Below are positions 34,788-38,004 of a DNA stretch of 38,004 nt, one piece after another; the stretch's first letter is position 1; each line of letters opens with the position of its first letter. The stretch lies in assembly GCA_001828935.1 (NCBI GenBank), contig MHZX01000077.1, positions 1 through 38,004 on the forward strand. The letters run 5' to 3'. This DNA comes from Rhodocyclales bacterium RIFCSPLOWO2_02_FULL_63_24. Its GTDB lineage: Bacteria; Pseudomonadota; Gammaproteobacteria; Burkholderiales; Rhodocyclaceae. The notes under the pieces were generated by a model. The model was not told where the DNA came from. It did not search any database and saw nothing but the letters and a program-made list of their open reading frames with translations. Made by a program: the position numbers and the translations under genes.

Positions 34788-35888
34788 ATGCCCATGAACA
34801 TCCCGATGCTTGATCTCAAGGCCGAATATGCCTTGCTGAAGGACGAAATCGAACCCGCCGTATGCGAGGCGCTGGCCGCCTGCCAGTACATCGGCGGCCC
34901 CAACGTCAAGGCCTTCGAGGCGGAAGCCGCTGCCTATGCTGGCGTCAAGCATGCGATCTCCTGCGCCTCGGGCACCGATGCGCTGCTGATCGCCCTGCGC
35001 GCCATCGGTCTGGGGCCGGGCGACGAAGTCATCACGACGCCCTTCACCTTCGTTGCCACCGCCTCGACCGTGCTCATGTGCGGCGCCAAGCCGGTGTTCG
35101 TCGATATCGATCCGCGCACGTTCAACCTCGACCTGAACCAGGTCGAGGCCGCCATTACGCCTGCTACCCGAGCCATCGTGCCGGTGCATCTGTTCGGCCA
35201 GCCGGTACAGCTGGCGCCACTCAAAGCCCTGTGCGAGAAGCACGGATTGAAGCTGATCGAGGATGCCGCGCAGTCCTTCGGCGCCGACTACGCGGGGCGC
35301 AAGTCGGGCGCATTTGGTGATATCGGCTGCACCTCCTTCTATCCCTCGAAGAACCTTTCGGCCTTCGGCGACGGCGGCCTGATGGTCACTGACGACGACC
35401 GTCTTGCGGCGGAAATGCGGGTGCTGGCCAGCCACGGCTCAAGGGTGCGTTACCACCACCATGTGCTGGGCTACAACTCGCGCCTGGACGAACTCCAGGC
35501 CGTGATCCTGCGCATCAAGCTGAAGCGCCTCGACAATTTCAACCAGCGCCGTATCGCCATCGCCGACTCCTACAACCAGCAACTCGCGGGCCTGGTCGAA
35601 ACGCCGTTTGCCGACGGCCACGGGCGCCATGTCTATCACCAGTACACGATACTTTCCGATCGCCGCGACACGATCCAGAAGGTGCTGGCCGACTCCGGCA
35701 TCGCCTGCGCCGTGTATTACCCGGTGCCGCTGCACCGGCAGGAAATGTTTGCCGCGACCCACGGCGATGTCCGCCTGTCGGTCACCGAGCGCGTCGCGCA
35801 GCGCTGCCTGTCGCTGCCGATTTCGCCGATGCTGAGGGACGAGCAGATCAAGCGCATTACCGGGGCCATGCGCCAGGCACTGGCATGA
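34788..35888 (+). CDS. gnnB: DegT/DnrJ/EryC1 aminotransferase, probable GnnB
   Basis: This 366-residue PLP-dependent sugar aminotransferase has a full fold: SGTDALLIAL (phosphate cup, 61-70), D159 in LIEDAAQSFGA, and Schiff-base K188 in FYPSKNLSAFGDGG. NSRLDELQAVILRIKL and YHQYTI follow. In the proposed pathway it transfers an amino group from glutamate to 3-keto-UDP-GlcNAc, giving UDP-GlcNAc3N. WbpE/WlbC are close homologues with a related reaction, so assignment to GnnB depends on the lpxA neighbour. Its stop overlaps the lpxA start as ATGA. A second in-frame ATG two codons in (34794) is possible. Confidence 0.75.
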   Translation: MPMNIPMLDLKAEYALLKDEIEPAVCEALAACQYIGGPNVKAFEAEAAAYAGVKHAISCASGTDALLIALRAIGLGPGDEVITTPFTFVATASTVLMCGAKPVFVDIDPRTFNLDLNQVEAAITPATRAIVPVHLFGQPVQLAPLKALCEKHGLKLIEDAAQSFGADYAGRKSGAFGDIGCTSFYPSKNLSAFGDGGLMVTDDDRLAAEMRVLASHGSRVRYHHHVLGYNSRLDELQAVILRIKLKRLDNFNQRRIAIADSYNQQLAGLVETPFADGHGRHVYHQYTILSDRRDTIQKVLADSGIACAVYYPVPLHRQEMFAATHGDVRLSVTERVAQRCLSLPISPMLRDEQIKRITGAMRQALA

Positions 35889-36658
35889 AAATTCACCCCG
35901 GCGCCGTCGTCGCCCCGGACGCGAAACTGGGCGCAAACGTCCGCATCGGCCCCTTCGCCGTGATCGAGGAGGACGTGGTGCTCGGCGACGATTGCGAGAT
36001 CGCCGCGCATGCCGTGATCAAGCGCCACACCCGCATCGGCGCGCGCACCCGCATCGCCGAGCACGCGGTGATCGGCGGCGATCCGCAGGACTTCAAGTTC
36101 AAGGCGGACTGCATCTCCTACACCGAGATCGGCGAGGACAATTGGCTGCGCGAGGGCGTCACGGTGCACCGTGGCTCGCGCGACGGCAGCGCCACGCGCC
36201 TGGGCAACGGCTGCTTCCTCATGGCCTACAGCCATATCGCGCATGACTGCCGGGTCGGCAACCACGTCGTGATGGCCAATACCGCCGGTATTGCCGGCGA
36301 AGTGGTGGTGCATGACCGCGCCTTCATTTCGGCCGCCGTCACGGTGCACCAGTTCTGCCGCGTCGGCCGCAACGCGATGATCGGCTTGTCGGCCAAGGTG
36401 GTGCAGGACGCGCTGCCTTTCTGCATTACCGACGGCAACCCGGGGCGAGCCCGCGGCCTCAACCTGGTCGGCCTGCGTCGCAACGGCTTCGCCAAGGACG
36501 AGATTCGTGCGCTGAAGGAGGCCTATCGCTTGCTGTATTCGCGCGTGCCGCTGGAGCAGGCTCTGGCGCAGATGCGGGCAATGAACAGCGCCGCCGTCGC
36601 CGAAGTCGCCGACTTCATCGCAGCCAGCAAGCGCGGCTTCGCCCACCCGACGCGCTAG
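35885..36658 (+). CDS. lpxA: LpxA-type UDP-GlcNAc (or UDP-GlcNAc3N) O/N-acyltransferase
   Basis: This 257-residue left-handed beta-helix protein aligns end to end with E. coli LpxA (262). Hexapeptide repeats fill the first 180 residues. The catalytic H120 (E. coli H125) lies in SHIAHDC, with H117 (H122), H155 (H160), D69 (D74) and K71 (K76) conserved. The C-terminal helical domain (GLNLVGLRRNGFAKDEI...) is present. L168 stands at the chain-length ruler position occupied by Gly173 in E. coli, which predicts a shorter hydroxyacyl chain. V195 replaces E200. The usual neighbours lpxD, fabZ and lpxB are absent. Instead it is fused into an operon with gnnA and gnnB. It may be the sole LpxA or a dedicated paralogue. 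Confidence 0.85.
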   Translation: MKIHPGAVVAPDAKLGANVRIGPFAVIEEDVVLGDDCEIAAHAVIKRHTRIGARTRIAEHAVIGGDPQDFKFKADCISYTEIGEDNWLREGVTVHRGSRDGSATRLGNGCFLMAYSHIAHDCRVGNHVVMANTAGIAGEVVVHDRAFISAAVTVHQFCRVGRNAMIGLSAKVVQDALPFCITDGNPGRARGLNLVGLRRNGFAKDEIRALKEAYRLLYSRVPLEQALAQMRAMNSAAVAEVADFIAASKRGFAHPTR

Positions 36659-36704
36659 CTCTGCCTATCCGCGTCGAGCAGAGGGTTATCGGTTTGCGCC
36701 CCGA

Positions 36705-36734
36705 TTGACGCTTGCGGCGGTTCGGACCTACAAT
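36705..36734 (+). promoter_or_regulatory. Strong sigma-70 promoter of the metK leader
   Basis: TTGACG (36705-36710, five of six) and TACAAT (36729-36734, five of six) are 18 bp apart, the best promoter in the window. Transcription would start near 36741, exactly where the structured leader begins. Confidence 0.7.
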
Positions 36735-36740
36735 GCACGC

Positions 36741-36896
36741 TGTTCCGCCGAGTTAAAAAGACAACTTGCGAGGCGGAGAAGACCCCCGGGGAAACGCGGC
36801 GGTCGGAAAACAAATATCGCTAAAGCGTCGCCTGCTTCCGCCCCATAGCTGGCCTCGCCAAGTTGTGGGGCGTTGTGTTTTTTTGGAGCAGGACAA
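36741..36896 (+). ncRNA. Structured metK 5' leader, candidate attenuating riboswitch
   Basis: The roughly 155-nt leader offers two exclusive folds. Fold A is a 14-bp long-range stem, 36761-36774 with 36852-36866 (one bulged C). It encloses GACC/GGTC (36781-36784 with 36801-36804) and CGGAA/TTCCG (36804-36808 with 36836-36840). The second of these holds CGC-TAAA-GCG (36818-36827). Fold B is a 5' hairpin CCGCC/GGCGG (36745-36749 with 36772-36776) plus inner AGTT/AACT, with a terminator hairpin ending in a U-rich tract. The same bases serve both folds. Such switches before metK usually sense S-adenosylmethionine. I find no match to SAM-I, SAM-II or SAH riboswitch consensus from memory. Confidence 0.55.
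36839..36884 (+). terminator. Conditional intrinsic terminator in the metK leader
   Basis: CGCCCCA (36839-36845) pairs with TGGGGCG (36866-36872). An inner TGGC-CTC-GCCA stem lies within the loop. TTGTG and then seven T (36878-36884) follow. It lies 12 bp before the metK ATG, so it can only be regulatory. The alternative long-range stem would open it. Confidence 0.6.

Positions 36897-38004
<1,108 letters not shown>

Follow-up and report, generated by a model that had tools for sequence, protein, structure and literature searches.

A SAM-II/SAM-V-type leader upstream of metK in a Rhodocyclales bacterium, a probable variant SAM riboswitch of Betaproteobacteria

The window, the whole 38,004-nucleotide stretch of contig MHZX01000077.1 from Rhodocyclales bacterium RIFCSPLOWO2_02_FULL_63_24 that was analysed, has metK at its 3′ end. 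The gene was identified by TIGR01034 (563.2 bits; cut-off, 309.4), which bears out the original prediction that the gene under control makes S-adenosylmethionine (SAM). The promoter TTGACG-N18-TACAAT predicted upstream is present and matches 10 of the 12 consensus positions; because 0.4 such sites are expected in 35500–38004, where 1 was found, we count it as a match rather than as proof. From the promoter spacing, transcription would start near 36741. The leader between this point and metK (36741–36896) folds at −65.4 kcal/mol (z = −3.33), a value equalled by none of 200 shuffles. The region before metK very probably is a regulatory RNA, as had been predicted, and it has no Rfam annotation. 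Table 1 lists the features of the locus.

Table 1. Features of the metK leader, in window coordinates (models R1 and R2 and alignment A3 are described in the text).
Feature	Position	Strand	Basis
Sigma-70-type promoter match	−35 TTGACG 36705–36710, −10 TACAAT 36729–36734	+	N18 spacing
SAM-II/SAM-V-type aptamer region	36740–36841	+	Models R1 (83.5 bits, window in training set) and R2 (27.4 bits, independent)
P1 5′ strand UCCGCC	36744–36749	+	Pairs with 36772–36777; covariation in P1
L1, putative triplex third strand GAGUUAA	36750–36756	+	Alignment to SAM-V
P2a 5′ strand GAC	36760–36762	+	Pairs with 36827–36829; 91.3% of cells paired (helix 2, A3)
P2 5′ strand UUGCGA	36766–36771	+	Pairs with 36817–36820 and 36822–36823 (helix 3)
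P1 3′ strand GGCGGA	36772–36777	+	Pairs with 36744–36749; covariation
Variable P3 hairpin between P1 and P2	36781–36804	+	−13.9 kcal/mol, z −1.47, 15/200 shuffles equal
A-rich joining strand AAAACAAAUA, a candidate for A-minor contacts by analogy with SAM-V	36807–36816	+	Sequence conservation
P2/P2a 3′ strand UCGCUAAAGCGUC	36817–36829	+	Contact alignment, covariation
Anti-Shine-Dalgarno CCUGCUUC	36831–36838	+	Pairs with 36885–36892; coevolution
Platform hairpin, terminator-like in this genus	36839–36872	+	Folding; two pairs changed on both sides
U tract (7 T)	36878–36884	+	Sequence
Shine-Dalgarno region GGAGCAGG	36885–36892	+	Pairs with 36831–36838
metK, S-adenosylmethionine synthetase	36897–38003, extends past window end	+	TIGR01034, 563.2 bits (cut-off 309.4)

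The 5′ part of the leader had been predicted to form a hairpin of its own (36745–36776). This hairpin folds at −9.6 kcal/mol (z = −1.85), but it is not exceptional alone, because 12 of 200 shuffles fold equally well. Its 5′ strand also serves a pseudoknot (36760–36771 with 36817–36829), which the original prediction overlooked. Covariation of P1 and P2 across families identifies the core of the metK leader as an H-type pseudoknot of the SAM-II/SAM-V kind. Pairing was assessed in two alignments: (i) in A2 (12 metK leaders), 96.7% of cells were paired and slid partners paired at 52.5% or less. Changes on both sides occurred in 12 cells, compared with a shuffled mean of 3.4 (none of 500 shuffles as high), and the weaker measures, namely 4 both-side-changed pairs and 9 further pair types, were matched in 52 and 74 of the 500 shuffles, respectively; (ii) alignment A3 comprises 79 copies, of which 20 carry CAGCUUGC and are designated X type; the remaining 59, mostly with ACAACUUGC, are designated K type (35 located upstream of metK). 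P1, but neither P2 nor P2a, was used to fit A3. In A3, 94.7% of cells were paired, slid partners paired at 46.2% at most, and both-side changes occurred in 120 cells (shuffled mean, 42.6; none of 500 as high); both-side-changed pairs and further pair types were reached by 8 and 6 of 500 shuffles. Two of the six P2 pairs covary, and the other four are invariant and thus neutral as evidence. Columns 33 and 34 of P2 in A3 were changed on both sides in 25 and 3 cells, respectively, and 12 of the 14 unpaired cells of column 33 belong to X-type copies. An insert of at least 14 nt occupies the P3 position in 90 of 140 leaders, and 86 of these 90 inserts fold at −4 kcal/mol or better. The joining strand may make A-minor contacts by analogy with SAM-V (PMC6061858).

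In the SAM-V structure, U47 contacts the adenine of SAM and A50 its amino acid end, the U20:A48.U9 triple lies round the sulfonium next to a U19:A49.U10 triple, and U8 is bonded to U47 without a SAM contact (PMC6061858). By alignment, U36821, A36822, A36823, and A36824 are the equivalents of U47, A48, A49, and A50, and 36753 and 36754 would be those of U9 and U10 in the numbering of that paper. The equivalents of U19, U20, U47, A48, A49, and A50 are invariant in all 59 K-type copies, and at the U9 and U10 equivalents U is present in 58 of them and a gap in the remaining copy. In the X type, the A50 equivalent is A in 19 of 20 copies, and the other contact equivalents are invariant. The window has G36752 where SAM-II has U (U8 of SAM-V). 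This position is G in 132 of 140 distinct metK leaders (GAG, 127; GUG, 3; GCG, 2; 7 unparsed items and 1 duplicate were left out of 148), compared with U in 17 of the 20 X-type copies. Such a near-fixed pocket change in the metK leaders amounts to a natural experiment on the role of position 8.

The covariance models of Rfam 15 gave no match in the whole window at the gathering score, and in 36640–36960 no SAM family (including SAH, SAM-I, SAM-III, SAM/SAH, and SAM-VI) was matched at E up to 10; the matches to WT1-AS_2 and sX8 were taken as chance. The SAM_V model, whose family we take to be RF01826, matched neither the window region and the leaders scanned (E ≤ 10) nor the tandem-copy loci (E ≤ 2). 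In the original prediction the core was said to lack the conserved runs of SAM-I, SAM-II, and SAH riboswitches; these searches gave no match to such families, but the core is of SAM-II/SAM-V type.

Of 200 genomes of the order, 36 contained a match to the SAM_alpha model (RF00521) at or above its gathering score of 36 bits, and 86 contained one that reached E 0.001. Copies located just upstream of K-type copies scored 38.4 (L118) and 40 bits (L120). The best metK leader scanned (L035) scored 21.4 bits, none of those scanned reached the threshold, and no K-type copy was among the SAM_alpha matches in the tandem-copy loci. A model independent of metK, R2, was built from 22 X-type leaders (metX, metZ, or tandem), including L118, L120, and two others above the SAM_alpha cut-off (L253 and L254; 52.5 and 52 bits). 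R2 found the window leader with an E value of 9e-6 in 76 kb; with filters off on 401 bases, the score was 19 bits at 36745–36828. It also matched all 20 other metK leaders tried (21.2 to 51 bits). In the reverse direction, model R1, a covariance model of 12 metK leaders from 12 genomes, matched the metX leader of the same genome at 24.4 bits. These matches mark the metK leader as homologous to copies above the Rfam SAM_alpha threshold. In the metX leader itself (L042, 1341–1412), a SAM-II-type core is followed by a terminator-like hairpin; it scored 23.2 bits with SAM_alpha, which is below threshold. A new riboswitch class, as originally proposed, was rejected because this metX leader could be aligned with SAM_alpha with the contact nucleotides in register; the pseudoknot covariation and the R2 match likewise place the core in the SAM-II/SAM-V type. 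The metK leader lies below the RF00521 cut-off and thus is no RF00521 member; therefore, we set it apart as a variant of this type.

Downstream of P2a, the leaders read by eye (from this genus, other genera of its family, and Burkholderia-like and Cupriavidus-like bacteria) have the anti-Shine-Dalgarno (anti-SD), the hairpin, and the Shine-Dalgarno (SD) in this order. In the window, the anti-SD helix encloses the hairpin, a feature the original prediction had overlooked, and helix plus hairpin reach −37 kcal/mol (z = −4.44). Among 111 metK leaders from outside the genus, the leaders' own anti-SD/SD duplexes averaged −14.11 kcal/mol compared with −10.66 (sd 0.23) for permuted pairs, and after thinning to 99 leaders the values were −13.98 and −10.67 kcal/mol; in neither case was any of 5000 permutations as low, with the permutation leaving kinship between rows in place. 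In 28 genus leaders, own pairs were little better than swapped ones (−13.24 vs −12.48). In alignment A5 (12 genus leaders), 87.5% of cells were paired in the anti-SD helix, with one pair changed on both sides, and 93.8% in the hairpin, with two such pairs. The covariation sought in the hairpin appeared in the count of both-side-changed cells (8 vs 2.2 in shuffles; none of 500 as high), but not in the weaker measures, which lay within the shuffles (both-side-changed pairs, 97 of 500; further pair types, 500 of 500). Nested folding of 137 leaders gave a mean unpaired probability of the SD of 0.23 without the pseudoknot and 0.19 with it; on pseudoknot formation, the probability dropped by more than 0.2 in 16 leaders and rose by more than 0.2 in 2. 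The SD is thus predicted to be almost as inaccessible in the absence of the pseudoknot as in its presence, a negative result for the switch. L214 was left out of the duplex and folding tests on account of its start codon, and L026 and L069 out of the nested folding (leaders longer than 130 nt). The pair statistics identify the anti-SD/SD pairing, not the 14-bp helix described below, as the conserved platform. Closure of the SD is supported by these comparisons; the way in which it would open on loss of SAM is our proposal.

The original prediction rested on a complementarity between 36761–36774 (ACAACTTGCGAGGC) and 36852–36866 (GCCTCGCCAAGTTGT), which indeed comprises 14 pairs with one bulged C, and on a terminator hairpin, which is likewise present: for 36839–36872 we obtained −25.6 kcal/mol (z = −5.9 when the tail to 36884 is included), and UUGUG and then seven U come next. 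Pair counts inside and outside the genus led us to reject the 14-bp antiterminator as a conserved switch and gave no support for conserved attenuation through it. In the register of the original prediction, the only one counted, the inner half keeps 6–7 of 7 pairs in the 28 genus leaders and the outer half in only 6 of them, and only the row of the window's own locus (L001) has all 14 pairs. In the metK leaders, covariation was found in P1 and P2 of the pseudoknot; the 14-bp stem was not seen outside the genus. Other ON-state pairings are not claimed: a helix of GCNGGGCGG with UCGCC was considered by eye, and CGUCGCC with a downstream GGCNACG recurs in 62 of 139 leaders (16 expected under single-base shuffling), but one of its strands is too constant for a covariation test.

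The element is widespread. A DNA search gave leader matches in 29 of 30 genomes of the genus and in 41 of 61 genomes overall, including its own. Ten of 11 non-genus loci that were read carry the blocks G-N-GTTAA ... GACAACTTGC and GCTAAAGCGTC shortly before metK; all ten belong to other genera, five in the same family and five in other families, and the remaining one, L037, matched by chance. R1 matched 272 of 399 genomes of the order (its own included; completeness of 90 or more, stricter filters) and 126 of 165 genera, although not all of these matches precede metK. In the class, 76 of 276 genomes had matches, 73 of them outside the order and mostly with lower scores, and in the phylum 32 of 249, comprising 18 from the order, 12 from the rest of the class, and 2 from outside the class. 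Downstream genes were read at 85 loci, consisting of 60 R1 matches picked for family diversity, 24 of 30 search loci (the window itself, four repeats of loci already read, and L064 were left out), and the metX locus of the same genome. The downstream gene is metK at 59, metX at 1, metZ (O-succinylhomoserine sulfhydrylase) at 1, and another gene at 24.

A pattern scan of named genomes gave at least 118 stretches, 80 of which were taken as loci. Among the matches listed, 52 of these 80 passed the core test, and 49 of the 52 precede metK. A second look at the 28 that failed found the core with a longer insert in L176 (Accumulibacter); L136, cut by the locus end, was left out of judgement, and 26 appeared to be chance matches, some of them titled Betaproteobacteria (L141, L143, L147, L179, and L209). 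The core-bearing listed records include Burkholderia, Paraburkholderia, Cupriavidus, Ralstonia, Bordetella, Achromobacter, and Polynucleobacter, as well as Dechloromonas, Propionivibrio, and Accumulibacter. Those with specific enough titles are presumably all Betaproteobacteria; L140, L161, and L214 are titled only Proteobacteria, and the title of L180 is uncultured bacterium. Not all genomes have the element: of the 127 without an R1 match, 20 were checked, and all 20 have metK with no R1-type core evident by eye upstream of it; a loose text pattern matched 3 of these 20 upstream stretches. In one of the three (L297), the metK leader resembles a SAM-II core by eye (long P1, GATTTG, CTCC...GGGG), and it gave no Rfam match at E up to 1. 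In two others (L283 and L285), SAH riboswitches (RF01057; 52.3 and 67.9 bits) lie on the metK strand, apparently, from the locus layout, just behind metK.

None of the 59 metK leaders examined is tandem; each has one copy. Among the 26 non-metK loci, 17 have a MATE gene, 18 are tandem, and 13 are both. In 13 tandem loci (L080, L081, L082, L087, L088, L089, L090, L109, L110, L118, L119, L120, and L132), an X-type copy with a terminator is followed by a K-type copy near the start, and downstream lie a small ORF (MYDC/MFDC..., approximately 100 aa) and then a NorM-like MATE exporter. The small ORF proteins had no match in Pfam (two tried) or NCBIfam (one tried). At L078, L255, and L258, the last of which is tandem, K-type copies precede a gene that by eye resembles an AAA/MoxR-type ATPase and has no evident methionine link. 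RF02424 (Bp2_287, a Burkholderia sRNA) gave sub-threshold matches opposite X-type copies on the minus strand (L109, 64–199; L117, 131–253; L120, 76–220), and this family may be the reverse complement of such an X-type leader. The tandem arrangement is of a known kind, because a 2022 survey counts 44 tandem SAM-II arrangements, in some of which a terminator copy precedes a ribosome-binding site (RBS) copy (PMC9481103).

Taken together, the metK leader is most likely a riboswitch that senses SAM through a SAM-II/SAM-V-type structure, and its form is a variant typical of betaproteobacterial metK. Sequence evidence supports the pseudoknot, the contact nucleotides, the anti-SD/SD coevolution, and the wide conservation before metK; that SAM is the ligand, that its binding turns expression off, and that the RNA switches between two states is inferred. 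When SAM is bound, the strand 36760–36777 would be held in P1 and in the pseudoknot helices P2 and P2a, the adjoining anti-SD would then pair with the SD region, and the metK ribosome-binding site would be closed. In this genus, the enclosed hairpin and the U tract may also stop transcription early. When SAM is scarce, the pseudoknot would open and its strands would re-pair, which would free the platform and raise metK expression.

We consider it probable that the platform acts chiefly on translation. The same aptamer could instead be linked mainly to transcription termination in the window, with the 14-bp helix, or its inner 7 bp, acting as an antiterminator against the hairpin 36839–36872. 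The strong hairpin and the seven U behind it fit this reading, as do the U-rich stretch that precedes the SD in 23 of 27 genus leaders, the preserved inner half (GCGAGGC with GCCTCGC), and a pairing between strand and tail that beats shuffles within the genus (28 leaders; −14.5 vs −9.8 kcal/mol). It is opposed by the loss of the outer half in most genus leaders and by rows with GCGTGGC, which break one inner pair while GCCTCGC stays; moreover, the U tract begins five bases past the stem, with two G between. Outside the genus the helix was not seen, pairing between strand and tail does not exceed that with shuffled tails (111 leaders; −10.0 vs −10.2 kcal/mol), and the U-rich stretch occurs in 26 of 110 leaders. 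Termination as the main mode in the window is a reading we hold to be rather unlikely; termination may be an added feature in this genus, because the U-rich stretch is common there and not elsewhere.

The near-fixed change from U8 to G, which separates the metK leaders from most X-type copies, could also mean that the metK variant has kept the SAM-II-like fold and binds a ligand other than SAM. A precedent exists in another fold, as SAM-I variants sense spermidine, one of which precedes metK of Oceanobacillus damuensis (PMC10853860). All the other contact equivalents are kept, however, and metK is preceded by several known classes of SAM riboswitch (PMC4239095 and PMC2864571), so that a change of ligand seems improbable. 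A leader that binds a protein or mediates ribosomal feedback, or a DNA operator, might merely resemble SAM-II, given that the ligand of the window RNA is assigned from its sequence. The compensatory changes in P1 and P2, the conserved contact nucleotides, and the transitive match to copies above the SAM_alpha cut-off make this reading highly implausible. A further reading, which we hold to be rather unlikely, is that the metK leaders are a subclass of their own in the SAM-II/SAM-V superfamily, marked by the pocket change from U8 to G, an optional P3, and the anti-SD platform, and that they respond to another range of SAM, or to another SAM-related ligand, than do the metX copies of the same cell. 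If so, one genome would read SAM with two aptamer versions and balance methionine supply against SAM synthesis.

Leyn et al. (2014) list beta-proteobacterial metK as lacking a known methionine regulator and report an unsuccessful search for an element (PMC4239095). The leader described here offers a concrete candidate in front of metK across many genomes of the order, and represents a widely distributed form of a well-studied aptamer that Rfam 15 misses. The literature searched contains no description of a betaproteobacterial metK element, and an earlier mention among SAM-II copies is possible. Corbino et al. (2005; PMC1273637) report SAM-II from alpha-proteobacteria and, in a few cases, from other lineages, and Meyer et al. 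(2009; PMC2704228) name Alpha-, Beta-, and Gammaproteobacteria as its hosts.

Compared with SAM-II (RF00521), the metK leaders share (i) the H-type pseudoknot, the L1 third strand, and the P2 strands CUUGC ... GCUAAA; (ii) the P2a spacing of 5 and 6 nt given by the Rfam consensus; and (iii) a sub-threshold match on one metK leader, with sister metX and tandem leaders of the order above threshold. They differ in scoring below the gathering score, in the third-strand G for U, in the frequent P3 hairpin, in the anti-SD that pairs with the SD in the platform, and in the target, metK. The metXZ element of Leyn et al., which precedes metX or metZ in beta-proteobacteria, has, by its text description, six conserved regions, two crossing helices, and a terminator; a SAM-II-type core was found in leaders of both of these genes, namely the same-genome metX leader and a metZ leader (L093), and the accessible part of that paper does not call the element SAM-II (PMC4239095). 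As in the tandem SAM-II and SAM-II/SAM-V arrangements described previously (PMC9481103 and PMC11508383), a terminator-linked copy precedes an RBS-near copy in the sister loci, whereas the metK leaders examined are single-copy. The SAM/SAH riboswitch (RF01727) also precedes metK (PMC4239095 and PMC2864571) and also forms an H-type pseudoknot (PMC7367207), but it is known from Rhodobacterales, and the window has no RF01727 match. SAM-V shares with the metK leaders the pseudoknot core, the contact residues, the P3 hairpin, and the translational mode; its SD lies within P2a, whereas the metK leaders have a separate anti-SD after P2a, and the SD of the window lies outside the P2a 3′ strand (PMC6061858).
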